This document shows, in pieces, positions 670-60,555 of a DNA stretch of 64,000 nt. Source of the DNA: Pseudoflavonifractor sp. An44 (GTDB taxonomy: Bacteria; Bacillota; Clostridia; Oscillospirales; Oscillospiraceae); assembly GCF_002161675.1 (NCBI RefSeq), contig NZ_NFIH01000011.1, forward strand, positions 1-64,000, given 5' to 3'. Within the stretch, counting starts at the first letter, position 1. Each line of letters starts with the position of its first letter. The notes under the pieces were generated by a model, which had not been told where the DNA came from, did not search any database, and was given only the letters and a program-made list of their open reading frames with translations. Both the position numbers and the translations under genes were made by a program.

Positions 670-1596
670 ATGGTACGAAAATGGTTTGTATGCCTGGTAT
701 CCCTTTGTATTCTGGCCGCCACACTCCCCATTCACGCCCCCGCTGCGGCCACCTCACCCCCCTCAGACTTTTCCCAAGTCTGCCCAGATCCGTCCCAACT
801 GGAGCAAGAGATTCTCTCCCATCTCACCGTGGCGTATGAGAACACGTTGCCCACCCTTTCCACTCCGGAGAGTGAGGAAGATGCAATCCCTACGTCCGTA
901 GATTTTTCCACTGCCATTCCCGTCTACATTGACACCGAGTTGGAGAACCTGTCTTTGGTGCAGCAAGCCGATATTCAAGCTCATCTGGAGCAATGCGTCT
1001 CCGTCTGGGTCATTCCCATGCAGGTGGGCTCTCTGTACGCCACGGTAACACTGGCCAAAGGACTGCCACTCAATCCAGAAACTGCGCATCTCATGACCCC
1101 TGCGGAACAGACTTCTGTTCAGGAAAAAGAAGGCCTATGGACCGTGAGTGAAGTGGCCATGTACACCGATTTCACCCCATATTCCACCCAAATCTCCCAA
1201 CTGGAACAGGCGGGAATCACCACGGAAGATGCGGTTTTGGTGGGTGGACTACCCGGCATTCGTATGCCTATGCTGTTGCTGTTTGAAGACGACATCGCCT
1301 CCTACTGGTATCCCATGGGAGACTATGGACCTTCCGAGGCGGAAGTCACTGGCTCCTATGTCCATCAGGCCAGGTTCCAAGGTGAATCTCTGCACCCCTT
1401 CTATGACTATGAAGCGGTCCTTTCCTATGCCAAGACCAATCAAACCTCCACCCAGACGGACAGCTCGGGTATGCCCAACGGCTCTACCAGCCAGGGCCCC
1501 ACACTGGTGGATTTTGTCCCACTCTTGGTGGCAGGGGCATTCCTCATCGTTGTCCTTTTGGTAGCTTTATGGGTGCTCCGCCGTCGGAAGAAATAA
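670..1596 (+). CDS. Secreted membrane-anchored protein of unknown function
   Basis: A 308-residue protein beginning after a strong AGAAAGGAGG ribosome site. Residues 1 to about 27 form a signal peptide ending around APAAA. The body has no domain I recognise. Near the C-terminus a Ser/Thr/Gly-rich linker precedes one membrane helix (about 282-302) and a cytoplasmic RRRKK tail, so it should be a type I membrane protein with its bulk outside the cell. It lies 32 bp downstream of the broken secreted protease, in the same direction, so it may have been co-expressed with it as a partner or propeptide-like factor; that link is inference. Confidence 0.75.
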   Translation: MVRKWFVCLVSLCILAATLPIHAPAAATSPPSDFSQVCPDPSQLEQEILSHLTVAYENTLPTLSTPESEEDAIPTSVDFSTAIPVYIDTELENLSLVQQADIQAHLEQCVSVWVIPMQVGSLYATVTLAKGLPLNPETAHLMTPAEQTSVQEKEGLWTVSEVAMYTDFTPYSTQISQLEQAGITTEDAVLVGGLPGIRMPMLLLFEDDIASYWYPMGDYGPSEAEVTGSYVHQARFQGESLHPFYDYEAVLSYAKTNQTSTQTDSSGMPNGSTSQGPTLVDFVPLLVAGAFLIVVLLVALWVLRRRKK

Positions 1597-1610
1597 TTCA
1601 CAAAACATGA

Positions 1611-1653
1611 ACATGCCCGTGAGCGTGGGAATCACCCAGGCTCACGGGCATGT
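1611..1653. terminator. Convergent intrinsic terminator-like hairpin
   Basis: A perfect 14-bp stem (1611-1624 pairing with 1640-1653) lies between the plus-strand gene ending at 1596 and minus-strand hisC ending at 1661. The T-runs are short (TGTTTTG on the minus strand, TTTCG on the plus), so termination may be moderate in both directions. Confidence 0.65.
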
Positions 1654-1660
1654 TTCGTAG

Positions 1661-2713
1661 TTACAGTTCTTGCAGGGCTCCCAGCAGGGTGTCCATCTCG
1701 GCATCGGTGCCAATGGAAATGCGCAGCCAGTTGGAAATAGCCGGGTTGGACCACCACCGTACCAGCACCCCACGCTCCCGCAGGCCGTCCAACAGGGCCT
1801 TCCCGGACTTGTCCGGATGGGAGACAAAGAGGAAGTTGGCCTGAGAGGGCAGTACCGTGTACCCCATCTCCCGCAGCCGCTGGGCGGTGCGCTCCCGGGT
1901 GGCCATTACCTTTTGACAGGTCTGTGTAAAGTAGTCCTCGTCCTCCACCGCCGCCTTTGCTCCCGCCTGAGCCAGACGGTCCACGGTGTAGGAGTTGATG
2001 GAGTCTCGGACGCAGCACAGGCCCTGGATGAGGTTCGGGTTTCCCATGGCCCAGCCCACCCGCAGCCCAGCCAGGGCTCGGGACTTGGAGGCGGTCTGGA
2101 TGACCAGCAGGTTGGGATAGCGGTCAATGAGCCCCACCGAGCTCTCCCCGCCGAAGTCCACGTAGGCCTCGTCCACGATGACCACCACGTCCGGGTTGGC
2201 ACGCAGCAGCTTCTCCACCACCTCCCGGGACACGCCCTGTCCAGTGGGGGCGTTGGGATTACACAGCACCACGCCGCCGTTTTTCCCCATCAGCTCCTCC
2301 ACCGGGGTGGAGAAGTCCGGGTTCATGGGCACTTGGCGGCAAGTGAGGCCAAAGTAGTTGGTGTACACGGGATAAAAGCTGTAGGTGATCTGGGGAAAGA
2401 CGATCTCTTTGTCCGGGTCAAAAAAGGCCTGGAAGGCAAAGGCCAGCACCTCATCCGAGCCGTTGGAGCAGAACACCTGGTCCGGGCTGAGCCCCTCCCG
2501 CCGGGCAATGGCACAGCGCAGCTCCAGGCACTCCGGGTCCGGGTAGAGGCGCAGTGTCTCCCCCGCCGCCCGGGTGATGGCCTCCACCACCTTGGGAGAG
2601 GGCGGGTAGGGGCACTCATTGGTGTTGAGCTTCACAAAGGTCTGGCCCTTGGGCTGCTCCCCCGGTACATAGGGCACCGCATCCACAATGCGGCGGCTCC
2701 AAAACTCTTTCAT
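1661..2713 (-). CDS. hisC: Histidinol-phosphate aminotransferase
   Basis: A 350-residue class I/II PLP-dependent aminotransferase that converts imidazole-acetol phosphate and glutamate to histidinol phosphate. Visible signatures are the N-terminal KLNTNECPYPPSP segment, FCSNGSDEVL, the DEAYVDF region, and the PLP lysine in TASKSRALAGLRVGW. Length fits the family (about 350). It overlaps the upstream DUF951 gene by 4 bp, so it is probably translationally coupled. No other his genes are adjacent; a PHP histidinol-phosphatase lies about 58 kb away at 60772. Related aromatic or threonine-phosphate aminotransferases share this fold, so substrate is probable rather than proven. Confidence 0.88.
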   Translation of the reverse strand: MKEFWSRRIVDAVPYVPGEQPKGQTFVKLNTNECPYPPSPKVVEAITRAAGETLRLYPDPECLELRCAIARREGLSPDQVFCSNGSDEVLAFAFQAFFDPDKEIVFPQITYSFYPVYTNYFGLTCRQVPMNPDFSTPVEELMGKNGGVVLCNPNAPTGQGVSREVVEKLLRANPDVVVIVDEAYVDFGGESSVGLIDRYPNLLVIQTASKSRALAGLRVGWAMGNPNLIQGLCCVRDSINSYTVDRLAQAGAKAAVEDEDYFTQTCQKVMATRERTAQRLREMGYTVLPSQANFLFVSHPDKSGKALLDGLRERGVLVRWWSNPAISNWLRISIGTDAEMDTLLGALQEL

Positions 2714-2907
2714 GCCTGTCCCTCCTCTCGTTTCACCCGCTTGATGGCCTTCTCTGCCTTGGCCCGGGGAATCATCATCTCCCGCTGGCAGCCCAGACAG
2801 CGCAGCTTAAAGTCCATTCCCACCCGCAGCACCTGCCAGTCCTTGCAGCCACAGGGGTGTTGCTTCTTCATCTCCAGCACGTCGCCGACCTGTATATCCA
2901 TGGGCAT
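2710..2907 (-). CDS. DUF951 family small protein
   Basis: A 65-residue protein with the DUF951 pattern: MPMDIQVGDVLEMKK at the N-terminus, then HPCGC, W-VLRVGMDFKLRCLGC, and a basic C-terminus. The paired cysteines (CGC and CLGC) suggest metal binding. The family is widespread in Bacillota and of unknown function, often suspected to bind nucleic acid. It is coupled to hisC by a 4-bp overlap and follows rarA by 15 bp, so the three form one minus-strand transcription unit. Confidence 0.85.
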   Translation of the reverse strand: MPMDIQVGDVLEMKKQHPCGCKDWQVLRVGMDFKLRCLGCQREMMIPRAKAEKAIKRVKREEGQA

Positions 2908-2922
2908 GGGATGCCCCTCCTC

Positions 2923-4185
2923 TCATTGGTGTTTGATCTTGTCCCAGTAGGCCTTAGCGGCCTGCTCGGTCTTATTGGGGCCGTACTCATAGTACACCCG
3001 CCCCACCAGAGCGTCGGGCAGATACTGCTGCTTCACCCAGTGGTTGGGGAAGTCGTGGGGGTAGAGATACCCCTGCTCCCGCTCAAAGCCTGTGCCGTCG
3101 GCGTGGACATTTTGCAGGTGTCGGGGGAAGTCCCCGGTCTTGCCCGCCCGCACATCCGCCATGGCGGCATTGATGGCGTCATGGCCCGAGTTGGACTTGG
3201 GGGCGGTGGCCATGAGGATGGCGGCATCCGCCAGGGCTAGCCTGGCCTCGGGCAGCCCCAGCATGGTGGCCGCATCCACGCAGGCCTTGACAATGGGGAT
3301 GACCTGGGGATAGGCCAGTCCCACATCCTCGCAGGCAATGACCATCAGCCGCCGACAGGCGGACAGCAGGTCCCCCGCCTCCAGCAGCCGAGCCAGATAG
3401 TGCACCGCCGCATCGGGGTCCGAGCCCCGGATGGACTTTTGCAGGGCGGACAGAATGTCGTAGTGCTGGTCTCCGTCCCGGTCATAGCGCATGGAGGAGC
3501 GCTGGGCCACCAGTTTGGCATCTGCCATGGTGATGGTCCGCACCCCGTCCGGGGTAGCGGCGGCATTCATGAGCACCTCCACCCCGTTGAGGGCCTTGCG
3601 CACGTCTCCCCCGCTGGCCTGGGCCAGGTACTCCTTCACCCCGTCCTCCCAGCAGCTCTCTCCGCCTAGCTCCTCGTCCATGAGCTTCACCGCCCGCTCC
3701 ACCGCCGGGAGCAGGTCCTCCGGGGTGAGGGCCTTGAACTCAAAGACGGTGGACCGGGACAGGATGGCGTTGAAGATGGTGAAATAGGGGTTTTCCGTGG
3801 TAGAGGCAATAAGGGTGATCTTTCCCGTCTCGATATAGTCCAGAAGGGTCTGCTGCTGCTTTTTATTGAAGTACTGAATCTCGTCCAAATAGAGCAGCAC
3901 CCCGTTGGGGGCCAGCAGCGTCCCCACCTGGTCCATCACCTCCCGCACGTCGGCCAGAGAGGCGGTGGTGGCGTTGAGGCGGCGCAGGGCGCGCCCGGAC
4001 CGCTTGGCGATGATATCCGCCACGGTGGTTTTCCCTGTACCCGAGGGGCCGTAGAACACCATATTGGGGATGTTGCCGCTGTCCACAATCCGGCGCAGCA
4101 GGCCGTTCTCCCCCAAGATATGTCGCTGACCCACCACGTGGTCCAAGGTCTGTGGCCGAATGCGATCTGCCAAGGGCTGATACAT
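2923..4185 (-). CDS. rarA: Replication-associated recombination protein A (AAA+ ATPase)
   Basis: A 420-residue MgsA/RarA/WRNIP1-family clamp-loader-like ATPase acting at stalled replication forks. Features are the Walker A GPSGTGKTTVAD, the Walker B YLDEIQYFNKKQQQ, the sensor STTENPYF, and the C-terminal tetramerisation region with HYLARLLEAGD. I start it at the ATG at 4185 (MYQPLADRIRPQ), because the family begins here and the 42-residue upstream extension is unlike it. A purine-rich AAAGGA site lies upstream. It leads the DUF951-hisC unit. Confidence 0.92.
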   Translation of the reverse strand: MYQPLADRIRPQTLDHVVGQRHILGENGLLRRIVDSGNIPNMVFYGPSGTGKTTVADIIAKRSGRALRRLNATTASLADVREVMDQVGTLLAPNGVLLYLDEIQYFNKKQQQTLLDYIETGKITLIASTTENPYFTIFNAILSRSTVFEFKALTPEDLLPAVERAVKLMDEELGGESCWEDGVKEYLAQASGGDVRKALNGVEVLMNAAATPDGVRTITMADAKLVAQRSSMRYDRDGDQHYDILSALQKSIRGSDPDAAVHYLARLLEAGDLLSACRRLMVIACEDVGLAYPQVIPIVKACVDAATMLGLPEARLALADAAILMATAPKSNSGHDAINAAMADVRAGKTGDFPRHLQNVHADGTGFEREQGYLYPHDFPNHWVKQQYLPDALVGRVYYEYGPNKTEQAAKAYWDKIKHQ

Positions 4186-5664: not shown

Positions 5665-6202
5665 ATGGTATCATTTCCCTTCCCGTTGGATGGTCCGCTC
5701 CCACAAAAAAAAGATACGGACGCTCTTGCACATCCTATGCACAAGAGTGCCCGCGTGATAGTCCAGGGGCCTGTTGCAAAATTGTGGTTTTGCAACAGGC
5801 CCTTCCATTTTATCAATCCCTCCGACTCGTCGGTGCGGACTTTGTATCCCTCGCCTCGCCCCTGAGAGGCGGGGCAAGTCTCGCTCACGCCGTCGCACCT
5901 CCTCTCCCCACCAAACCCGCTGGCGCTGGGCTTTGGCGGGGACCCCATAATACCGTGCCACCTCCCTTTGCACAAGGGAGGCTTTTCACCGGGAAAATTC
6001 TTTACATTTCTGCTTTACAGGAGAAGCTTGCATGCAAGAAAATTCTTTCTGACTAGAGAACCCAGGCTAAAGACTTGGTAAACGCGAAATGTGACACAAG
6101 CAAAAAAACACCAAAACTGTACATTTGCAAAAAATCGAGTATGCCCTCAAACTCACAACAAACGTTCGTAAAAAGGCCTGCTATTATTACGCAACACACT
6201 TG
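5665..6202. other. Long intergenic region with palindromic repeat-like DNA
   Basis: No convincing gene. The strongest structure is a perfect 15-bp inverted repeat, 5767-5781 with 5788-5802 (GGGCCTGTTGCAAAA arms, 6-nt loop). A second, weaker symmetry lies around 5724-5746. From about 5840 to 5985 the DNA is GC-rich with short inverted motifs (CCTCCCTTTG...CAAGGGAGG at about 5961-5983). After 6060 the composition switches sharply to AT-rich. This looks like small interspersed, MITE-like repeat DNA at the edge of a foreign island. Confidence 0.5.
5767..5802. repeat. 15-bp perfect palindrome (possible interspersed repeat or terminator)
   Basis: Arms GGGCCTGTTGCAAAA and its exact complement flank a 6-nt loop. 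A closely similar string (GGGCCGTTGCAAAATAC) occurs on the minus strand at about 7209-7226, just after ispF. The shared core suggests a dispersed element rather than a simple terminator. Confidence 0.55.
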
Positions 6203-6418
6203 TTATTGGCTTTTTCTGTAATTGTTGATATTTGTTAATATGGTTATGATTATAACTAAATCTAAAAACACCCAAAAAAACATATATTCAGAAATTCCTA
6301 TCCCATCAATAACAAAAACAACCAACTCCAAAACCATAACAATAAACCATAATGCCACCTGCGTCAGTAATAAAATGAACCTAGCTTTCTTGCCCTCTGT
6401 GACTTTTTTCCTCCCCAT
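6203..6418 (-). CDS. Small two-helix membrane protein
   Basis: A 71-residue protein with a basic N-terminus (MGRKKVTEGKKAR), two hydrophobic helices (about 14-36 and 43-63) and a polar tail. A TAGGTGAACT ribosome site precedes the ATG at 6418. The DNA is far more AT-rich than neighbouring core genes, suggesting acquisition by transfer. I do not recognise a family. Beside damaged glycine-rich peptide genes it could be a bacteriocin immunity-type protein, but that is only suggested by size, topology and context. Confidence 0.55.
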   Translation of the reverse strand: MGRKKVTEGKKARFILLLTQVALWFIVMVLELVVFVIDGIGISEYMFFWVFLDLVIIITILTNINNYRKSQ

Positions 6419-6464
6419 AGTTCACCTACTCATCTAGTGCAAGTTTATAAATTCCCTTAAACCT

Positions 6465-6562
6465 TTAGATTAAAAAATTCAGTACTCCCCAAACAGCTGC
6501 ACCCGAAATTCCAAGTGTTGCTGTAATACACCCGACAGCAGCTGCGGCTCCAGCCTTCCATG
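6465..6562 (-). pseudogene. Remnant of an Ala/Gly-rich hydrophobic peptide gene
   Basis: Minus-strand translation ending at the TAA at 6465 gives AWKAGAAAAVGCITATLG followed by ISGAAVWGVLNFLI. This resembles the C-terminal core of small membrane-active (bacteriocin-like) peptides. Upstream it hits a TGA after a few codons, and the DNA becomes GC-rich and unrelated (about 6563-6606), so the N-terminal part has been replaced. No start or ribosome site remains. Confidence 0.45.
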
Positions 6563-6666
6563 CGCCACGACTTCGTCATTGGCAAGGACGTGGACAAGCG
6601 CTCATAAAGCATAAGTTTACTAGGTTGCCTGCCTGATTAGAGTTAGGCTAGATGTTACAACTATGC

Positions 6667-50842: not shown

Positions 50843-50886
50843 AGGAGTGCGGACTGGTTGATTGACCAGTCCGCACTCCCTTTTCT
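50843..50886. terminator. Convergent intrinsic terminator
   Basis: GGAGTGCGGACTGGT pairs perfectly with ACCAGTCCGCACTCC, with CTTTTC on the plus strand and CTTTTAT on the minus. It serves both dfx and the cysteine-desulfidase-like gene. Confidence 0.88.
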
Positions 50887-52160
50887 TATTGTCCCGTCAT
50901 AATGCGCAAGATTTCCCGGTCTGTCTCCCGCATGCCCAGGCGCCCCAGGCGGGCCACCATGTTCAGAGTGTTCTCCACTCCTTTTTTCACAATGCCGTCC
51001 CCATCGTAAAACTCGTGTCCGGCCTTGTACATCTCGTAGCCCATCAGGCCCGCCTCCAGAGCCAGAGAGATTTTCGCCGCACAGGAGGCCTTGGCCCCGT
51101 CGCACACCATGCCGGACACCACAGCCAGAGAATTGACCAGGGTGTGAGCCACCCCATCCAGGCCCATACCGTCCAGATAGGCAATGGCGGCGGCAGCGGC
51201 ACAGGCCGCGTTCACCGCCCCGCAAAAGGCGGACAGGCGGCCCAAATTGGTCTTTTGGTGGACCGTGAGCAGATTGGACACCACCATGGCCCGGTACATC
51301 CGCTCCTCCCCAATGCCCTTCATGGCCGCATATTCCATCACAGGCAGGGAGGCGGTGAGGCCCTGGTTTCCACTGCCCGAGACAATGACCACCGGCAACT
51401 CGCAGCCGCTCATACGGGCGTCAGACCCGGCCGCCGCCCGGGCACGCAACCGGGCTTTCCAGTCGTTTCCCGCCTGGGCCATCAGCTCTTTTCCGATCAT
51501 GGCCCCGTAACAGCCCTCCAGTCCCTCCTGGGAGATGGCCCAGTTCAGCTGGGCCTGCTGCTGGATGGGCTGGCGGATGTCCTCCAGGTCCACGCTGTCG
51601 GCAAAGTCCAAAATGTCCTCCACCGTGAGCAGTTGCTGCAAAGGGTTTTCCTGCATGGCCTGGGGAACCTCCCGCTCTTGCAGAACCTGGCCGTTGCGGC
51701 TGACATGCACCAGGTTGGTGTGCTGGTCCACCATCCGCACTCGGGCCACATCGTCTCCCGTTCGGACCTCCACCAGGATGTCAAAGGGGTGGGTGGTGTC
51801 CAGAGGCAAAATGGTCACCCGCTCCTGGGCCAGATATTCCTCCACCGCCTCCATGTCCTGATCGGTCACATGGGCGATGCACTCCAGCTGAGCCTGGGCC
51901 TGGGCAGCCACGGTCCCCACCGCTGCCGCCACCTCCAGGCCACGTCTGCCCCCGGTGTTGGGCACCACCACGCTCTTGACATTCTTAATGATGTTGCCGC
52001 TGACGTGGAGCTTCACCTGCTGGGGCAGCTGCCCCAGGGTCTGGCGGGCCACCGCACAGGCATAGGCCACCGCAATGGGCTCGGTACACCCCATGGCAGG
52101 CTTTAACTCCTCTCGGAGGATTTGCACATACGCTTGATATCTCTCATCGGTCCGTTGCAT
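50886..52160 (-). CDS. L-cysteine desulfidase / UPF0597 family protein
   Basis: A 424-residue Fe-S enzyme family member (CdsB/YhaM). Conserved parts are KPAMGCTEPIAVAYA at the N-terminus, SGSGNQGLTASLPV and the C-terminal FCGAVNAACAAAAA and SGMVCDGAKASCA, whose cysteines could hold a 4Fe-4S cluster. CdsB releases sulfide, ammonia and pyruvate from cysteine; serine-dehydratase-like activity is an alternative. TTCCTG-N17-TAGAAT upstream may give it a promoter separate from the B12 operon. Confidence 0.88.
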   Translation of the reverse strand: MQRTDERYQAYVQILREELKPAMGCTEPIAVAYACAVARQTLGQLPQQVKLHVSGNIIKNVKSVVVPNTGGRRGLEVAAAVGTVAAQAQAQLECIAHVTDQDMEAVEEYLAQERVTILPLDTTHPFDILVEVRTGDDVARVRMVDQHTNLVHVSRNGQVLQEREVPQAMQENPLQQLLTVEDILDFADSVDLEDIRQPIQQQAQLNWAISQEGLEGCYGAMIGKELMAQAGNDWKARLRARAAAGSDARMSGCELPVVIVSGSGNQGLTASLPVMEYAAMKGIGEERMYRAMVVSNLLTVHQKTNLGRLSAFCGAVNAACAAAAAIAYLDGMGLDGVAHTLVNSLAVVSGMVCDGAKASCAAKISLALEAGLMGYEMYKAGHEFYDGDGIVKKGVENTLNMVARLGRLGMRETDREILRIMTGQ

Positions 52161-52236: not shown

Positions 52237-53538
52237 TCATTCCATCAGCAGCCCGTACTTCTTGCGCATGCGCCGAATTTTCTTCAGCATGGGCTTGGCA
52301 CAGAGCGATAAAAACACCACGGTGGACACCCCGTGGGTGATGTTTACAGGCACTCCCGCCACGTAGCAAGCCAGCACCGACTGCCAGGTCAGCCCCTCCA
52401 ACACAGATAGGGCGGTGGAGGTATCCAGCAACAGGCCGTAAATGACCACGGTGGCCAAAAACCCATATACGCACACCCCCATGAGAGAGAGTTTTCCCCG
52501 CCGCATCCGCTTTTCAAAGAGCAGCCCCGCCAAGAAGCCGATGACGCCAAAGGCAAACATCTGCCAAGGGGTCCAAGGCCCCTGCCCAAAGAAAAAGTTG
52601 GACACAAACCCGGTCATGGCTCCCGTGAGGAATCCCGCCTCTGCCCCCAGCCCAATGCCCGCCACGATCACCAAGGCGGTCACCGGTTTGAAGTGGGGGA
52701 GCATGAAAAACACCGCCCGCCCCGCCGTGGCGATGACCACCAGAGAGGAGATGAGCACCAATTCCCTGGCCTGGGGTCGGCGGTCCTCAAAGACGGCAAA
52801 GAACGGGAGCATCGCCGCCACAATGACACAGATAGAGATAAAATAGTAGCTACGCCCCTTCAAAAACACAATGCCAAAGGCGATGAGCAGCGGGATAAGC
52901 ACCAAAATCACCCCAGCGGCCAACCGGGTCCGCCGTCCCATGCCCCGGACGGTGGGCACTGAGGCCAACTCCACCCGCTGGGTGTTCAGCAGCCGCCCCG
53001 CTCCCAAAAGAAAGGCCAACCCTGCCGCCCCTTGGCCGCAGGCAAACCCGGTCAGCTGCATGTGGCTGAACACCGTCAGGTCCCAGAAGGTGTTCCCCTG
53101 GCCCAGAGCGGCGTTGAGTATCTCACTCAGGCGGACAAGCACCACCGCCGCCCCCGCCACAGAGAGCAGGGCCAGGAGGGCGGACAGCCGCACCGCCGCC
53201 GTGGCACCTTTCTTTCGCCGCCAGGCCAGCCCCGCGGCGAGGAGCAGAACAGGAATGGAGAGCCCTGCTGCCAGCTGGGTCGCCCTCAGCCACACCAGCG
53301 TTCCCCCGTCCAGGGTCAGTAACTGGGGGTCCTGCACTAGATATAGCTGAGAGGCTAACTCCACACTCTCCCCCGCTCGCCACAGGGTAAACTGGTCTGT
53401 CAGGCCCTGATAGGCCAGCTCCGGGATGGAAAACCAGGGGGCAAAGGCCGCATTGGCCGCCATGGCCACACACAGCCATACCGCCACCATCACCCAGCTG
53501 TCCGCCCCGGTGCCCGTCTTCACTTTGTCTGTGTACAT
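52237..53538 (-). CDS. ECF transporter S component with extra N-terminal membrane domain
   Basis: A 433-residue membrane protein. The C-terminal about 200 residues (from about 235) look like an ECF S component with six helices (ELVLISSLVVIATAGRAVFFMLPHFKPVTALVIVAGI, GFLTGAMTGFVSNFFFGQGPWTPWQMFAFG). The N-terminal about 215 residues hold five or so further helices plus a soluble stretch, which ordinary S components lack. ATG 53538 overlaps the EcfA gene by 19 bp. Given the cobalamin riboswitch, a corrinoid (CbrT-like) substrate is inferred. Confidence 0.83.
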   Translation of the reverse strand: MYTDKVKTGTGADSWVMVAVWLCVAMAANAAFAPWFSIPELAYQGLTDQFTLWRAGESVELASQLYLVQDPQLLTLDGGTLVWLRATQLAAGLSIPVLLLAAGLAWRRKKGATAAVRLSALLALLSVAGAAVVLVRLSEILNAALGQGNTFWDLTVFSHMQLTGFACGQGAAGLAFLLGAGRLLNTQRVELASVPTVRGMGRRTRLAAGVILVLIPLLIAFGIVFLKGRSYYFISICVIVAAMLPFFAVFEDRRPQARELVLISSLVVIATAGRAVFFMLPHFKPVTALVIVAGIGLGAEAGFLTGAMTGFVSNFFFGQGPWTPWQMFAFGVIGFLAGLLFEKRMRRGKLSLMGVCVYGFLATVVIYGLLLDTSTALSVLEGLTWQSVLACYVAGVPVNITHGVSTVVFLSLCAKPMLKKIRRMRKKYGLLME

Positions 53539-55169
53539 GCCCGCACCACATCCTCCACCGTCACCGCCTGGGGAAAGACCTCCCGTGCCATCTGATTGGC
53601 GGCGGTGGTGTAAAAATGATTGCCCAGAAAGAAGTCCCGGGCGGGCTTCTGGCACACCAGCTGGCCCCGGAACAGCAGCCCACAGGTATCCGCATAGGCG
53701 GCGCAGAACTCCACATCGTGGGAGACCATGAACACCGTCTTGCCCTGTCCGGTAAGCGCTCCCAGCACCTGGGCCAGGGTCTGTTTATAGCACCCGTCCA
53801 GTCCCTTGGTGGGCTCGTCCAACAGGAGAATCTCCGGGTCCAGCAGCAATACCTTGGCCAGAGCCGCCCGCTGCTGCTCCCCCCCGGACAAATCATAGGG
53901 GTGCTGGCCCAGCACCCCCTCCAGCTGGGTCACACGGATGGCCTGGGCCAAGCGCTCCTCCCGTTCCTTTCTGGACAGGAGCAGCTCGTCCAGCAGCTCC
54001 TCCAGGTCCGCCCCCACCGTGTCCTGAACAAAGAGGCACTGGGGATTCTGGGGCAGAACTCCCAAAATCCCCCGCTCCAGAGGCCGCCCCCGCTTTCGCA
54101 CCTGACCGCCAATGCGGATTTGGCCCCGGTAAGGGTGATTCTCTCCAGAGAAGAGGGAGAGAGCTGTGGTCTTGCCCCCACCGTTGCCCCCCATGAGGGC
54201 GTACAGCTGCCCTCTGGGCACCTGGAGGTTGAGCCCCTGGAGCACATCCGCCCCGTGGCGGTCATAGCGAAACCACACCTCCCGAGCCTCCAGGGCAAAA
54301 TCCCTGGGAGCGGACTGGTCAGGGGTCTCTACGGGGGGCTGGGGCTTGTCCCGGTACTGCTCCAGCCAGGTCCGCCCCTCCTTCACTGTCATGGGGCAGG
54401 CCTCTCCCCCCTCCACTCGATTATAAATCTGCATGGGCACCGGGCAGCACACCCCCAGAGGGTGGTGGGCCAGAGCCCGCCCCACCTGCCGGGGGGAGCC
54501 GTTGCAGAGGATTTTGCCCTCCTCCAGCACCACCACCTGGTCCGCCATGGGGAACACCTGGTCCAGGCGGTGTTCCACCACCACCACCGTCAGCCCCAGC
54601 TGCTGGTTGAGCCGCTGGAGGGTGTGGAGAAAGTCGGTGGCCGCCATGGGGTCCAACTGGGAGGTGGGCTCGTCCAGCACCAGCACCTGGGGGTGCATGG
54701 CCATCACCGAGGCCAGGTTGAGAAGCTGTTGTTCCCCGCCGGACAACTCCTCCACCTTCCGGTCAAACCAGTCCTGGAGGCCAAAATAGCTGGCCATCTC
54801 CGCCACCCGAAGCCGCATGTCCCCCAGCTCCAGCCCCAGGTTCTCCAGGCCGAAGGCCATCTCGTGCCATACCTTATCGGTGACCAGCTGCTGCTGGGGA
54901 TTTTGCATCACAAAGCCAATCTCCCCCGCCTGGGTGCGCAGGTCCACCTGGTGCAGCGGAGTACCCTTGTAGAAGATCTCTCCGGTCCGGGTTCCGTGAG
55001 GGGTCAGGGCACTTTTGAACTGGCGGATGAGGGTGGATTTTCCACACCCGGACCGCCCGCAGATCACCACGAATTCCCCTGCCCCAATTTGGAGGTTCAC
55101 CTCTCGCAGCGCAGGGACTGACGCGTCGGGATAGGAGAAGGTCAGATTTTGCACATCCAATAACGCCAT
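53520..55169 (-). CDS. ECF transporter ATPase, fused two-domain EcfA
   Basis: A 549-residue protein with two ABC domains in tandem. Domain 1 has Walker A GRSGCGKST, Q-loop FVMQNPQQQ, signature LSGGEQQ and Walker B LVLDEPTSQLD. Domain 2 (from about 305) has GGNGGGKTT, VLPQNPQCLFVQDTV, LSGGEQQRAALAK and LLLDEPTKGLD. It replaces separate EcfA1 and EcfA2. I use ATG 55169 (MALLDVQNLTFSYPD); the 230-residue upstream extension is the ecfT gene in another frame. It overlaps ecfT by 28 bp. Confidence 0.93.
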   Translation of the reverse strand: MALLDVQNLTFSYPDASVPALREVNLQIGAGEFVVICGRSGCGKSTLIRQFKSALTPHGTRTGEIFYKGTPLHQVDLRTQAGEIGFVMQNPQQQLVTDKVWHEMAFGLENLGLELGDMRLRVAEMASYFGLQDWFDRKVEELSGGEQQLLNLASVMAMHPQVLVLDEPTSQLDPMAATDFLHTLQRLNQQLGLTVVVVEHRLDQVFPMADQVVVLEEGKILCNGSPRQVGRALAHHPLGVCCPVPMQIYNRVEGGEACPMTVKEGRTWLEQYRDKPQPPVETPDQSAPRDFALEAREVWFRYDRHGADVLQGLNLQVPRGQLYALMGGNGGGKTTALSLFSGENHPYRGQIRIGGQVRKRGRPLERGILGVLPQNPQCLFVQDTVGADLEELLDELLLSRKEREERLAQAIRVTQLEGVLGQHPYDLSGGEQQRAALAKVLLLDPEILLLDEPTKGLDGCYKQTLAQVLGALTGQGKTVFMVSHDVEFCAAYADTCGLLFRGQLVCQKPARDFFLGNHFYTTAANQMAREVFPQAVTVEDVVRACTQTK

Positions 55170-56032
55170 TTCAAATCCTCCACCAAGTTGAGTATCAAAG
55201 GCAGGGCGCACAGCACCCCGTAGAGGGCATAACACACACAGGCCGGGACGGTGGCCACGTTTATGCGCCACACCGGGAAATACAGCATATTCAGCTGTCC
55301 TGTGACTACGCCCGCCGCCACGCATCCAAAGCACAGGGCCATCCCCGCCGCCAAGGCGGTGGAACGCCCATCCCATCGGAAGGGGTGGTATAGGGTGCGC
55401 CCCCGCAGGCCATAGCCACGGGCCCGCATGGAGTCGGCAGTGTCCACCGAGTGTTCCAAAGACCATGTGACTAGGATGGACAGCACCCGCCCCCCCTTTT
55501 TCAGCCGCTGCCATGGGGTGCCCTCCCCCACGTCCCGGCCCACGCACCGCTGGGCTGCCATCACCCGCTTGGCCTGGGTCAAAAACAGGGGAAGAAAGCG
55601 CAGCACCATGGAGAAGATGAGGGCTAGGGCGGGAAAGCCCTTGCCAAAGAGGTACACCACCTTGTCCTCCGTCATCACGTCCTGCCAGGTGGCACACCAC
55701 AAGATCACCACCCCCATCATCCCCCCGGTGCATAACCCGTACACCACAGACTCCAGGGTCACCGGGTTCCCCGAGGGCAGGTACCCCAGAATGGTGAGGC
55801 CCTGGTGGGAGAAGAGGGGATTGATCACGGCCGAGAGCACCACCACCGGAAGGGCCAGCAGGCACACCCGCACAAGCCCCTTCCCGCCCCGCAGGCGGAA
55901 CAGATAGGCGGCGGCAGAGACTCCCGATAACACCAGCAACACTGGGTGCATGTAAAAGAGGGTAACCCCCAGCACCAGAAGGTAAAAGATGAAATTGATA
56001 CCCGGATGACAGCGGGAAAACTCGTCCTTCAC
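55142..56032 (-). CDS. ECF transporter transmembrane component EcfT
   Basis: A 296-residue protein with several helices and the two Ala-Arg-Gly-type coupling motifs: SMRARGYGLRGRT is clear, and AAQRCVGRDVGEG precedes it. These contact the ATPase. GTG 56032 follows GGAGAGGGCGGC. It lies between the DUF4430 lipoprotein and the fused ATPase, making a complete ECF module (S, A-A, T) in one operon. Confidence 0.92.
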   Translation of the reverse strand: MKDEFSRCHPGINFIFYLLVLGVTLFYMHPVLLVLSGVSAAAYLFRLRGGKGLVRVCLLALPVVVLSAVINPLFSHQGLTILGYLPSGNPVTLESVVYGLCTGGMMGVVILWCATWQDVMTEDKVVYLFGKGFPALALIFSMVLRFLPLFLTQAKRVMAAQRCVGRDVGEGTPWQRLKKGGRVLSILVTWSLEHSVDTADSMRARGYGLRGRTLYHPFRWDGRSTALAAGMALCFGCVAAGVVTGQLNMLYFPVWRINVATVPACVCYALYGVLCALPLILNLVEDLKWRYWMCKI

Positions 56033-56051
56033 GCCGCCCTCTCCTCCTCTC

Positions 56052-56774
56052 TTACAAATCAAAGCCCAGATCGCAGGTGTACTTAAACTCGATGACGTCC
56101 CCGTTCTTCACCGTGTACTTGCTCACCCCGTAGTTGGGCTTGGTCCCATTGACGTAGTACATCCAGCCGGACCCGGCCCCACAGTCGAACTCATAGAGGT
56201 TGTTGATGCCCTCAATGTAGTGGCTGCCAAAGCCGGGGGTGTACTCGTACTCCATGTGGATGCCGTAGGTCTGGGTGGCTCGGAGGAGCACGTCAAACAC
56301 CGACTCCCCCTCCTCAAAGGAGATGGCCTTGCGGGACAAAATCACCCCGTCTGAGGGCACCAAACTCTCCTTCCCTGGGGTTAGGTCCTCCATGCGCCCT
56401 AAAATGGTCTTGCACTCAATGGAGAGATAACAGATGTTGACCTTGGGCGTGGGAGTCGGTTGGGGAGTGGGAGCGGGCGTGGCCTTCACCGCCGGCTTCT
56501 GAGTGGGCTTGGGTGTCGGCGCCGGCGTGGCTGCCGCTGCGGACGACTCTCCCCGGTCCTGACTCTGGGCGGGCTGCTGAGTCGTCGCCGGGGCCTCACT
56601 GGCCTGGGGCTCCCCAGAGGGCTGCTCGCTGGGAGCAAGACTCTCCTCCACCCCCACGGTGGGGGACACTGTGGGGGTGACCACAGCGCCCTGCTCCCCC
56701 GTGTTTCCACAGGCCGCCAAAGTCAGCAGCAGCAACAGGGAAAACAGGCACATCCATCGTTTCAAATGCTTCAT
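56052..56774 (-). CDS. DUF4430 (transcobalamin C-terminal-like) lipoprotein
   Basis: A 240-residue lipoprotein. The signal ends in the lipobox LAACG (Cys near 22). A long Pro/Thr/Ala/Ser linker follows (about 30-110). The C-terminal about 125 residues are a DUF4430 domain (EGESVFDVLLRATQTYGIHMEYEY, YIEGINNLYEFDCGAGSGWMYYVNG, NYGVSKYTVKNGDVIEFKYTCDLG). This domain is related to the C-terminal beta domain of transcobalamin/intrinsic factor. It likely hands corrinoid to the ECF transporter. Confidence 0.88.
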   Translation of the reverse strand: MKHLKRWMCLFSLLLLLTLAACGNTGEQGAVVTPTVSPTVGVEESLAPSEQPSGEPQASEAPATTQQPAQSQDRGESSAAAATPAPTPKPTQKPAVKATPAPTPQPTPTPKVNICYLSIECKTILGRMEDLTPGKESLVPSDGVILSRKAISFEEGESVFDVLLRATQTYGIHMEYEYTPGFGSHYIEGINNLYEFDCGAGSGWMYYVNGTKPNYGVSKYTVKNGDVIEFKYTCDLGFDL

Positions 56775-56801
56775 AGGCTCTCCTCATACGCCGGAGGCTT
56801 T

Positions 56802-59800
56802 TTAGCCCCGGCTCTTTCTCTTACGGTCGGTCCAAGCAGCGGCACACAGCCCCGCTGCGCTCATGCCCAGAATCACCAGAGATTCCACCAGGGGGCTGGT
56901 ATCTCCGGTCTGGGGCACCTGGGGCTCCTCCTCCCCGCTGCCCGGATTCTCTCCGCTGTCTCCATCCTCTGTGGGGGGCGCGGGGGTCCACTGGGTCAGG
57001 TCAAAGAGGGTGTTCTCCCCTGCCACAAAGCGGCGGTAGGCCTCCAGGGCGTAGCCGATCTGCACGGTGCCCATGCCGTCAGGCTTGTCACTGCTCATAA
57101 AGGTGGTAAAGCCGGACTCCCGCTTGAACTGGTCCAGTTTGGTGACCAGATTGTAGTTGCCGTGGGTGAACCCGTTGTCCGGGTCCAGAGGGTCGATGCC
57201 CGCCACCGCCAGGGCGGTGAGCACCTGGGCGGCGGTACAGCCGTTGTCATCCCCCTCATTGATGTAGCCGCAGTCGCTGGTCATCTGGCTGCGCAGGTAC
57301 TCCAGCGCCCGGTCAAAGGCCTGGCTCACCTGCTCCATGTCCCGGTATGGGGCCAGGGCCTGGAGGGTCATGGCGGTGACATCCACACTCACCGTGTCCG
57401 CCGAGGACAGGCCGAACCCGCCGTTGGCATTTTGGAAGGTGAGAATCTTCTCAATGAGGGTCTCCCGGGTCCACCGGGCATCCTGGGGCACCTCATAGTC
57501 CTTGGTATCCAGGGCCAACAGGGTGTAACTCATCATGTTGGAGGTCATGCGGTCCAGATTGGGGTAGTTGTACAGGGTCTCAATGAGGTCCATCCCCGCC
57601 ACGTCGGTGGGGTCCTTCCCCATGGCCAGCAGCGCCACCACCACCCGGAAGTAGTCGGTGGGCAGCATTCTCCCGCCGCTTTCCAACTGCTGGGTGATGC
57701 TGGCGTAGTAGCTGTCCAGATCGCTCTGGCTGAGGCTGGCCCCGGCCCGGAGCAGCGTAAACAGGCTCCACTCGGCCCCATAGGTGTAGTTGCCCTCCAG
57801 CTGGCTGTCCAGGTAGGACAGAGCGTGACGGATGTTATCCGTCACATATCGGTCAAAGTCCAGGTCCTCCACAGCGTCCGGCTGAGTCACCGTCACGGTG
57901 AACTGGATGGGCTTGGCTCCCTTGGTGTCGTCCAGAGGGGTGCCCGTCACTGTCACCGTGCCCTGCTCCAGGGCGGACAGGGTGTGAGTGGTGGTCATGG
58001 TGCCGGGGGTGCTGGTGACATAGTCGTTGACCTTCACAATCCCGTCCTGGCTGTAGGTCCAGGTAAACCGCTGGTTGGTGGCGTTTGCAGGAGTCACCAG
58101 CAGGTCCAGGTTCATGGACTCATACTGAGCCAGAGTGAGCGTGGTCTCCTCCATCTCCACCTGCTCCAGGGGATGCTTATACTCAAAGCGAATGGTAATG
58201 TCCTGGGTGGCTGCGGGGTTGTCCACGCTGGTGACGGTAAACCGGGCCGTGCCCGCCTTCTTGGGAACGATACCGTTGCCATACGTGGCCTGGAACTCCG
58301 CCACATCCGGGTCGTGGGACACCCACACCACGTCCTTGACGGTGGCGTTGTGGGGCTCAATGTTGATCTCATACCGCCGTTCCGGGTCGGTATCATGGGA
58401 GGTAATGCCCACGTACTGGTTGCCCAGGCCGTTCCACCCCTCGATGTAGAACACCTCAGGATAGGTCACCGTCAGACCGGTCACGTCAATGCGCTGGGCG
58501 GTGGCCTGGAAGCTCACGGTGACCTGGGGGTTATCCGCCAGGGACACAGTGAAGGTGTGCATGGACTGGTCCTCGGCAAAGAACTCCAGGCCGTTCTCCC
58601 CATCCAGGGTATAGATATAGGAGCCTTCGGTGGAGGTCATCTCCAGAGCCTGATTGGGGATGGTGATGTACACCCCGTCCAGGCAGCCCTTCACCGTCAA
58701 CTGCTGGGGCTGGGTACCGCTCAAATGGAGGGGTTTCTCCCCGGTGACGGGCCAGCCATCCTGGTACAGCTTCAGGTCGGTGACCTGGGTGGGCACCACC
58801 TTCAAGGTAAAGGTGGCCAGTTCCTGAGCCACATACCAGTCGGGGTTCTTGTCGTACACATAGGCTTGATACTCGCCCACCGAAGGATAAAACTTACCGC
58901 TGGAGGAAATGTGGATGGTGGAGGACTCCGAGCCTCCGTTCTGCTGGCTGCAGCTCCAATAGGTGCTCTGTCCCTCAGCTACGCCCTCCAGCACAAACCG
59001 CCCCTCATCCAGCGCGGAGAGGGTGAAGGTGTGGGTGTCGTCCCACTGGGTAATGCGCCCGTCCGTGTGGTAAAACACCACCGTGGGGGTGGTGGGCACT
59101 TCTCGAGGGGTGACGGTGACGGTGCATACGGCACTACAGGCGCCAGCCGTCACCGTAATTTGAGCGCTTCCCGCCTGGTGGGCCACCACCAGGCCGCTGT
59201 CATCCACGCTAACAATGTCGGGGGCACTGCTCTGCCACACCACAGCGTCGGTGGAGTCGGCCGGGGTTACCGTGGCGGTGAGCCGCACCCCCTGGCCCTC
59301 CTCCAGGTCCAGCTTGGTCTCACTCAGGGTAACGGACTGGGCGGCAATGCCCGTCACGGTCACCATCACCGTGGCCTTCACCGTCTCGTTGGCCTGGGCG
59401 GTGATGACAGCGGTGCCCTCTCCCACAGCCCGGACCACGCCCTGATCGGTGACCTGGGCCACATGGGTGTCCTCACTGTACCACACCACGGTGTCGTTGC
59501 TCTCCTCCGGGATCACCGTGGCGGTGAGGGCCTGGGTCTCTCCCACCATCAGGGTCACTTCCCCAGGAGTCACGGTGATGTCGGTGGCGGGGACCTTCTG
59601 GGCCAGCAGTTGGGAGACAATCTGGGTCTGCTCATTCACCTGCTCCTGGGTGGCCGTCCCATCCACCGCCACCTGCAACGCCTGCTCATAGACCTGGGCG
59701 TTGGCGTCAATCTGGGCCTGGGTCAGCTGGGCCAGGCTGGATACCAGCTTGTCCTTGTTGATCCCCAGAGCACCCTGTCCGGCCTCTGCGGCAGGCGGGA

Positions 59801-60251
59801 TGTAGTCGGGAGTACCCTGAGCGCTGTCCTGAACGTAAATGAGGCGAATCACTTCTCCCGCCTGTACCTGGTACTTGTTGCCCACCTTGACGCTGTCCAC
59901 AAATGGCCACCAGGCTTTTTTGCCCCAGTTCACCTCACCCACCGCTTGGCCATCGTTTGGGGTGACAGTAAAGCCGTATAGGGTGCTGTAGGTCACGCTG
60001 CCCCGGTCTTGATAGCCCCGTTGCAGCACGTCCACCAGGATATCTCCCTCCTCCAACTCCACCTGGGTGGGGGGCAGATAGTACATGGTGTGGCCACTCT
60101 CGTCGGCGTACTCCATGGTCACCGTCACGGTCTGCACTCCGCTCCGGCTGGTGTTCAGGGCCAACGCCCCGGATACCAGGGTCCACACCATGGCCAGGGT
60201 CAGCAGCAGACTCAGCCACCGCCGCCCCCTTCTTCTCGCTTCTGCTCTCAT
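56802..60251 (-). CDS. Wall-anchored transcobalamin-like surface protein
   Basis: A 1149-residue protein. In order: signal peptide (to about 31); a DUF4430-like domain (about 40-155, QVELEEGDILVDVLQRGY...QAGEVIRLIYVQD); a helical segment; two bacterial Ig-like (Big2) domains (about 222-385); further beta domains, one Ig-like near 630-730; an alpha/alpha prenyltransferase-like repeat domain (about 810-1070, FQNANGGFGLSS, SVDVTAMTLQALAPY); a linker, a VPQTGD sortase-type motif, one helix and a basic tail. Both domain types of animal B12 carriers are present. It is the first gene after a cobalamin riboswitch. Confidence 0.87.
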   Translation of the reverse strand: MRAEARRRGRRWLSLLLTLAMVWTLVSGALALNTSRSGVQTVTVTMEYADESGHTMYYLPPTQVELEEGDILVDVLQRGYQDRGSVTYSTLYGFTVTPNDGQAVGEVNWGKKAWWPFVDSVKVGNKYQVQAGEVIRLIYVQDSAQGTPDYIPPAAEAGQGALGINKDKLVSSLAQLTQAQIDANAQVYEQALQVAVDGTATQEQVNEQTQIVSQLLAQKVPATDITVTPGEVTLMVGETQALTATVIPEESNDTVVWYSEDTHVAQVTDQGVVRAVGEGTAVITAQANETVKATVMVTVTGIAAQSVTLSETKLDLEEGQGVRLTATVTPADSTDAVVWQSSAPDIVSVDDSGLVVAHQAGSAQITVTAGACSAVCTVTVTPREVPTTPTVVFYHTDGRITQWDDTHTFTLSALDEGRFVLEGVAEGQSTYWSCSQQNGGSESSTIHISSSGKFYPSVGEYQAYVYDKNPDWYVAQELATFTLKVVPTQVTDLKLYQDGWPVTGEKPLHLSGTQPQQLTVKGCLDGVYITIPNQALEMTSTEGSYIYTLDGENGLEFFAEDQSMHTFTVSLADNPQVTVSFQATAQRIDVTGLTVTYPEVFYIEGWNGLGNQYVGITSHDTDPERRYEINIEPHNATVKDVVWVSHDPDVAEFQATYGNGIVPKKAGTARFTVTSVDNPAATQDITIRFEYKHPLEQVEMEETTLTLAQYESMNLDLLVTPANATNQRFTWTYSQDGIVKVNDYVTSTPGTMTTTHTLSALEQGTVTVTGTPLDDTKGAKPIQFTVTVTQPDAVEDLDFDRYVTDNIRHALSYLDSQLEGNYTYGAEWSLFTLLRAGASLSQSDLDSYYASITQQLESGGRMLPTDYFRVVVALLAMGKDPTDVAGMDLIETLYNYPNLDRMTSNMMSYTLLALDTKDYEVPQDARWTRETLIEKILTFQNANGGFGLSSADTVSVDVTAMTLQALAPYRDMEQVSQAFDRALEYLRSQMTSDCGYINEGDDNGCTAAQVLTALAVAGIDPLDPDNGFTHGNYNLVTKLDQFKRESGFTTFMSSDKPDGMGTVQIGYALEAYRRFVAGENTLFDLTQWTPAPPTEDGDSGENPGSGEEEPQVPQTGDTSPLVESLVILGMSAAGLCAAAWTDRKRKSRG

Positions 60252-60283
60252 GTTCTCAAGTCCTTTCCTGGGAAATGAATATC

Positions 60284-60515
60284 AAAAAGCGGCTGCAACC
60301 CATGGTTGCAGCCGCTTTCAGGCAACACAAAAGGAAGGCCCGCCCATCGCCTTGGGCGCACCTTGGTCCCATCATATGCAGGTCTTCTGGCTCTGGCCTC
60401 ATCGCCCTGGCCGTCTTCCCAGAAACTTCCGTTTCCAGTGACATATTGGCCAGCACTCTTCCATTACAGCGGCGGCTCCGCACAGGTTTTGCACCTGTTT
60501 CCCTTTTCAATCTGC
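60284..60515 (-). promoter_or_regulatory. Cobalamin riboswitch with intrinsic terminator
   Basis: On the minus strand, GGGAAACAGGTGCAAAACC, CGGAGCCGCCGCTGTAA, TCACTGG, GGGAAGACGG and GATGAGGCC occur in order. They are followed by the B12 box GAGCCAGAAGACCTGC (60393-60378), all as in the cobalamin aptamer. The expression platform ends in a 15-bp terminator stem (60286-60300 with 60304-60318) and TTTTTG, 33 bp before the surface-protein ATG. B12 should therefore switch the operon off by premature termination. Confidence 0.95.
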
Positions 60516-60555
60516 CCGATCACAGATCACACATGTGGTTTATGCAATTATCTCT

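Follow-up and report, generated by a model that had tools for sequence, protein, structure and literature searches.

Passages of PMC5997447 describe CbrT of L. delbrueckii as the S component of an energy-coupling factor (ECF) transporter that imports cobalamin and cobinamide; CbrT alone binds vitamin B12 with nM affinity, and one ECF module is common to several S components. In part of PMC6593275, CbrUVT is listed as a B12 transporter, and identifying B12 transport systems in many gut genomes is presented as an open problem. Here we analyzed 64,000 nucleotides of DNA from Pseudoflavonifractor sp. An44 (assembly GCF_002161675.1, contig NZ_NFIH01000011.1, positions 1 to 64,000; hereafter the window), where a cobalamin riboswitch precedes genes for a giant surface protein, a DUF4430 lipoprotein and a complete ECF importer. 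The locus is very probably a B12-repressed operon for corrinoid capture and import, in which a CbrT-type ECF importer is combined with an extracellular, transcobalamin-like capture module.

The open-access literature, to which the search was confined, yielded no description of a B12 system made up of barrel, DUF4430 and ECF parts. DUF4430 and cobalamin occur together in PMC4350170, on the vertebrate carriers, and also in a Lacticaseibacillus proteome paper. The cbrS gene of L. delbrueckii is named in a passage of PMC5997447; it may encode a DUF4430 protein and hence be prior art.

Operon layout, riboswitch and importer

The operon and its parts lie on the minus strand at the following window coordinates:

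52237-60549, minus strand: whole operon with its riboswitch, comprising riboswitch, terminator and five same-strand genes
60360-60549, minus strand: cobalamin riboswitch aptamer RF00174, full-length covariance-model match
about 60280-60319, minus strand: terminator hairpin with a 16-bp stem, the 3' arm ending in UUUUU
56802-60251, minus strand: giant surface protein of 1149 amino acids, with signal segment, DUF4430-like N-terminal domain, three Big_2 domains, alpha/alpha barrel and VPQTG tail
59802-60146, minus strand: DUF4430-like N-terminal domain of the giant protein (residues 36-150), from hhalign against the lipoprotein DUF4430 alignment
56952-57911, minus strand: alpha/alpha barrel as modelled (residues 781-1100), helices from about residue 799, resembling the transcobalamin alpha domain
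56904-56918, minus strand: VPQTG, presumably a wall-anchor motif of the sortase type, followed by a hydrophobic segment (residues 1121-1139) and RKRK
56052-56774, minus strand: lipoprotein of 240 amino acids, with DUF4430 at 56076-56309 and the lipobox LAAC read from the sequence
55142-56062, minus strand: EcfT, CbiQ-type transmembrane subunit (PF02361) with six hydrophobic segments
53520 to about 55169, minus strand: fused EcfA with two ATP-binding cassette (ABC) ATPase domains (two ABC_tran stretches), start codon inferred
52237 to about 53538, minus strand: S component of 433 amino acids, the last 240 or so forming the CbrT-like core, start codon inferred

The riboswitch matches RF00174 over the whole model (positions 1-189 of 189) with 107.1 bits against a gathering threshold of 31.5 (E-value 7.6e-26 in the window), and this leader is the sole RF00174 match found in the 2.75-Mb genome. 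A first-pass annotation made from the letters had claimed a complete aptamer followed by a terminator; both are present, the stretch 60284-60515 that it proposed for the covariance search being slightly short on the 5' side. The terminator stem of 16 bp, at about 60285-60319, takes in four of the five U in the UUUUU run, and the 66-nucleotide stretch that contains the hairpin folds at -35 kcal/mol (z -4.6), with none of 200 shuffled sequences equally stable. A simple consensus terminator scan did not list the hairpin at 60280-60319. It would serve as the expression platform, with expression off when the ligand is bound.

The five same-strand genes claimed in the same annotation are likewise in place: 27 nucleotides separate the giant-protein and lipoprotein genes, and the remaining operon junctions overlap. 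For EcfA and the S component, whose starts are inferred, the list of open reading frames shows longer in-frame alternatives. Pfam assigns the lipoprotein to PF14478 (DUF4430) with 78.1 bits, the sole PF14478 match found in the genome. In NCBIfam the giant protein has no match, and the four matches of the lipoprotein, all below cut-off, reach only its signal peptide and low-complexity linker. EcfT scores 31 bits for PF02361 (Pfam cut-off 25) and the fused EcfA 334.5 bits for ECF_ATPase_1 (cut-off 315).

The S component points to the ligand. A 13-row profile of its core, compared with the Protein Data Bank (PDB), finds CbrT of L. delbrueckii (6fnp_A) as closest solved relative, at an E-value of 7.2e-22; the other matches up to an E-value of 5 are RibU (8e-7), 4hzu_S, named 'Predicted membrane protein' (1.9e-5), and a motility protein (0.15). 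With EcfT, paired EcfA and S genes present and the S component homologous to CbrT, the importer fits the CbrT-type ECF transporters, with corrinoid as its predicted substrate. Ahead of the CbrT-like core, the S component carries about 190 extra residues in which three hydrophobic segments are predicted, the first and second joined by a long loop; this membrane N-terminus is possibly a docking part for the lipoprotein.

The genome encodes one MetH-type protein with pterin-binding, homocysteine-methyltransferase and both B12-binding domains (622 residues covered of an 816-residue frame); PF02310 has one other, weak match, an IMP dehydrogenase. It has no match to CbiC, the rest of the corrin pathway not having been searched, and none to a PduO-type adenosyltransferase, other adenosyltransferase types not having been searched. 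Accordingly, the bacterium probably depends on corrinoid from outside.

Just 3' of the operon and on the same strand lies a gene for a protein of the PF03313 serine dehydratase alpha-chain family (50886-52160); the simple scan listed no terminator between it and the S-component gene.

The surface barrel and its likeness to vertebrate B12 carriers

In the giant protein Pfam recognizes Big_2 three times and, below threshold, a toroid, and it makes no DUF4430 call. Where two DUF4430 proteins had been claimed, the lipoprotein is thus upheld by Pfam, and the giant protein only by profile comparison: its N-terminal domain aligns with the lipoprotein DUF4430 at an hhalign probability of 94 (E-value 1.4e-7; a single pair, with six rows on one side). 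The earlier argument for a binder had used DUF4430 alone and overlooked the C-terminal alpha/alpha barrel, which is at least as important for that reading.

A barrel profile identified at least 518 confirmed relatives, and the best 80, chosen by barrel similarity alone, gave 79 loci, including ones from Pseudoflavonifractor, Clostridium, Intestinibacter, Paenibacillus and Sporosarcina. Among these best 80, the nearest named relatives come from an uncultured Oscillospiraceae (95%) and Pseudoflavonifractor (88 and 80%). Alignment and model used 55 sequences, the window protein and relatives from 54 of the 79 loci. The AlphaFold model of residues 781-1100 is an all-helical alpha/alpha barrel with a predicted local distance difference test (pLDDT) score of 94.8. 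In a Foldseek search of the PDB its ranks 1-8 are all transcobalamin (E-values 8.3e-6 to 6.3e-5), and further transcobalamin and intrinsic factor chains are interspersed among toroids below rank 8. Each of the six even-numbered helices has, close to its N-terminal end, one or two polar residues that 80% or more of the 55 rows conserve (E47/W48, T85/R89, N125, D177/T179, Q229 and T282/Q284, alignment numbering); close to that end of the six odd-numbered helices only Y68 and R149 are conserved in this way, and R55, D100, D135, Q160, Q184, Y189, D240, Y292 and R294 are conserved polar positions elsewhere in the barrel. Such a pattern could be the look of a ligand pocket on one barrel face, and in the modelled fold this polar face would bind the corrinoid.

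The likeness is stronger when both domains are considered. At 23 of the 79 loci DUF4430 comes after the barrel in one frame, fewer than 180 residues further along, which is the domain order of transcobalamin; 14 of these tandems were aligned, and Pfam finds DUF4430 in all 14. The tandem modelled was that of Paenibacillus agri L161, a relative and not the window protein (pLDDT 86.7, predicted template modelling score 0.71). Its PDB ranks 1-15 consist of 12 transcobalamin chains, two of intrinsic factor and one of haptocorrin (E-values 3.8e-11 to 1.4e-9), with farnesyltransferase following at rank 16 (4.6e-5).

Searches with PF01122 (Cobalamin_bind), the curated profile for vertebrate cobalamin binders, in 398 genomes of the phylum gave three matches at E-values of 0.01 or below, none over the cut-off and all in DUF4430 or B12-riboswitch loci. 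Two are in frames that hold barrel and DUF4430, one starting 172 nucleotides downstream of a riboswitch (L187) and one on a 9-kb contig without a riboswitch (L188); the third is in a 393-residue frame 190 nucleotides downstream of a riboswitch, in which our custom profiles find neither barrel nor DUF4430 (L189). Each constitutes weak evidence. A phmmer search with two relatives bearing weak PF01122 matches found no B12 carrier. The barrel/DUF4430 giants of L187, L188 and L115 carry three SLH stretches near the C-terminus, so the type of anchor varies.

Linkage across the Bacillota

The operon is confirmed to be real and conserved, and the survey of gene neighbourhoods envisaged in the first-pass annotation shows its linkage with cobalamin riboswitches recurring across the Bacillota, in three samples. 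Locus counts refer to the same strand within the stretch examined and were made with our own custom profiles. Among the 79 barrel loci, DUF4430 occurs at 70, EcfT at 57, EcfA at 59, the S component at 57 and all three ECF parts at 55; at 48 loci barrel and DUF4430 share one frame. A riboswitch of at least 40 bits stands upstream at 51 loci (same strand, anywhere from 1.5 kb ahead of a set gene's open frame to 400 nucleotides into it), and an Rfam search of the remaining 28 added L135 (of the adenosylcobalamin type) and L146, giving 53 of 79 with an upstream cobalamin riboswitch. Since many of the 79 are from Paenibacillus, the loci are not independent. At L119, a cobalamin riboswitch (6117-6320, minus strand) and a barrel-DUF4430 frame, whose start is some 400 nucleotides off, occupy opposite strands; this riboswitch was not counted.

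In a set of 60 related genomes, searched for riboswitches with stricter filters that lose weak matches, DUF4430 is present in 42 and RF00174 in 29. Of the 56 DUF4430 places, 23 have a same-strand RF00174 no more than 6 kb upstream, and these involve 23 of 38 riboswitches. Uniform placement, roughly estimated for a single genome size, predicts about 0.08 such cases, and chance proximity was rejected on this comparison. One relative (G033, loci L065-L070) has six RF00174 and five DUF4430 matches and a recorded contamination of 7%.

The third sample was drawn from the phylum with the lipoprotein profile, which matches 25 of 299 genomes; the counts concern the 24 other than An44 itself. RF00174 is found in 23 of them and a CbrT-like S component in all 24. 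RF00174 stands up to 11 kb upstream on the same strand at 34 of 50 DUF4430 places, in 19 of the 24 genomes (28 of 50 within 6 kb); 6 of the 105 riboswitch matches in this draw are below the Rfam cut-off, and 2 of the 34 places depend on these alone. At 25 of the 50 places an S component follows within 11 kb downstream. A minimal form also exists: 16 of 40 stretches pair a DUF4430 frame with a nearby S-profile match (E-values 2e-11 to 5e-3) and have no EcfT match, and 12 of the 16 have their DUF4430 place 295-564 nucleotides behind RF00174. The minimal pairs indicate that DUF4430, rather than the barrel alone, is tied to B12 uptake.

Two loci show multiplied riboswitches. L151 has three in succession (at 1244, 2277 and 3308; span 1244-3496), each followed by a DUF4430 frame (144, 144 and 460 residues), ahead of the main set, a pattern suggestive of a riboswitch-DUF4430 unit that was duplicated repeatedly. 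Upstream of the set at L106, two cobalamin riboswitches lie 65 nucleotides apart (6216-6653), a possible tandem switch.

Alternative readings and comparison with known systems

Several observations weigh against a transcobalamin-like corrinoid capture operon. In the fold search with the barrel alone, farnesyltransferase and other toroids come close behind transcobalamin, from 7e-5, and by sequence the barrel profile leads to squalene-hopene cyclases (E-value 3e-14) and not to transcobalamin. The DUF4430 profile finds no transcobalamin in the PDB. The tandem model overlays on the PDB carriers with a root-mean-square deviation of 22-24 Å, which means either a different arrangement of the domains or a poor prediction of it; the domains align consecutively and not as one rigid unit. 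In the window, barrel and DUF4430 domains are split over two proteins and in another order. PF01122 has no match in the An44 genome and exceeds its cut-off in none of the 60 relatives and none of the 398 phylum genomes. Two sub-threshold matches in the 60 relatives (E-values 0.018 and 0.073) do not support a link, because the 3-kb stretches around them have no barrel, DUF4430, ECF or riboswitch match. At 26 of the 79 barrel loci the search of the coding strand yielded no riboswitch upstream; six of these (L107, L111, L112, L148, L155 and L170) have their first gene truncated at the end of the stretch examined, which leaves its upstream side out of view. Further, 5 of the 24 phylum-draw genomes have no DUF4430 place with RF00174 within 11 kb.

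The strongest alternative, which we consider improbable, is an ordinary CbrT-type ECF importer whose co-regulated giant protein and lipoprotein do not bind corrinoid and have another task, such as adhesion or the binding of another ligand. ECF transporters are not known to depend on external binding proteins, the Ig-like Big_2 domains of the giant protein are common in adhesins, and the minimal riboswitch-DUF4430-S pair does without a barrel. CbrT, moreover, binds B12 by itself at nM affinity (PMC5997447, in part). Yet the two added domain types together fit the vertebrate B12 carriers far better than any other PDB entry, DUF4430 remains next to S-profile matches even in the minimal pair, and EcfT, EcfA and S genes accompany the barrel at 55 of 79 loci.

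Import of a cobalt compound, of haem or of a different tetrapyrrole in place of a corrinoid is very unlikely: EcfT does fall in the CbiQ (cobalt) family and ECF haem uptake exists (PMC7299338, in part), but the S component is nearest to CbrT, an S component for cobalamin and cobinamide, on which ground a cobalt importer was rejected; the cobalamin riboswitch and the transcobalamin-like fold speak the same way, and since the genome lacks a CbiC match, cobalt on its own would probably yield no corrinoid. A reading of the barrel as a secreted enzyme in the terpene cyclase or prenyltransferase class, as its squalene-hopene cyclase matches and the Pfam families Prenyltrans and SQHop might suggest, is scarcely credible and was rejected, since the last Asp of DXDD, the catalytic motif of class II terpene cyclases, is missing in all 55 aligned barrels (M, V, I, T or L takes its place at position 178, in the register of the barrel-cyclase alignment), and the giant protein carries a signal for export, is encoded in an ECF operon with a B12 riboswitch and ranks transcobalamin first in the fold search.

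The corrinoid-scavenging relay of surface binder, lipoprotein and ECF importer put forward for this Gram-positive locus thus stands as the best reading, supported by the riboswitch, the nearness of the S component to CbrT, the barrel and tandem folds and the recurring linkage. When cellular cobalamin is low, the riboswitch would let transcription run past the terminator. The giant protein would be exported and, judging from its VPQTG tail, held at the wall. Fold and domain order in the relatives suggest that the corrinoid would be gripped as in transcobalamin, between barrel face and beta domain, by the barrel of the giant protein and the DUF4430-type domains of giant protein and lipoprotein. 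The lipoprotein may then carry the ligand to the membrane, where the CbrT-like S component would bind it and EcfT/EcfA drive import; this is the proposed direction of the relay.

The proposed system is a concrete, testable candidate for B12 capture and import in many Bacillota, and it offers a likely function for DUF4430 and a role for terpene-cyclase-like surface proteins. The giant protein is also a possible bacterial relative of intrinsic factor and transcobalamin. We lean, by a little, towards a broader proposal: that Bacillota hold a prokaryotic counterpart of the animal B12 carriers, in which a surface clamp of barrel and DUF4430, each domain homologous to its equivalent in transcobalamin, intrinsic factor and haptocorrin, would pass corrinoid through a dedicated extracellular relay to a CbrT-type ECF importer, with one shared B12-binding ancestor and corrinoid binding by bacterial DUF4430 in general. 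If this is correct, proteins built like the B12 carriers of the host could let some gut bacteria compete for the vitamin.

With transcobalamin, intrinsic factor and haptocorrin, the An44 proteins share the alpha/alpha barrel and a DUF4430-type beta domain; these carriers are the best PDB matches, and relatives keep the same one-chain order. DUF4430 is called transcobalamin-like by InterPro. The vertebrate carriers act by receptor-mediated endocytosis, whereas the window proteins would be surface-anchored beside an importer; they fail PF01122 and have the domain types split in two. The window protein has the family's alpha/alpha barrel, as modelled, and lacks the one-chain order of barrel then DUF4430; for want of that order and of PF01122 we do not claim that it is a member of the vertebrate carrier family, and it likely works like such a carrier. 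The BtuH locus of the Bacteroidetes serves an outer-membrane route and not an ECF importer. BtuH is nevertheless alike as an accessory B12 binder of a transport locus, with Ig-like domains ahead of a C-terminal B12-binding domain, as passages of PMC8941943 describe; these report that domain to be without known structural homologues, whereas the An44 barrel has transcobalamins as best matches. BtuF of BtuCDF has a fold unrelated to the capture proteins here and, if the model holds, is likewise an extracytoplasmic binder feeding an ABC-type importer. The transporter type is unrelated, according to part of PMC5997447. The closest system remains ECF-CbrT of L. delbrueckii (PDB 6FNP; CbrUVT in gut reconstructions), which has in common with An44 the EcfT, the EcfA, the CbrT-like S component and the predicted ligand, cobalamin or cobinamide. 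In contrast to that system, as far as it is described in PMC5997447, the An44 S component has its own ECF genes, with a fused EcfA, and a cobalamin riboswitch, and to the importer An44 adds the DUF4430 lipoprotein, the giant surface protein and the membrane N-terminus of about 190 residues on the S component.

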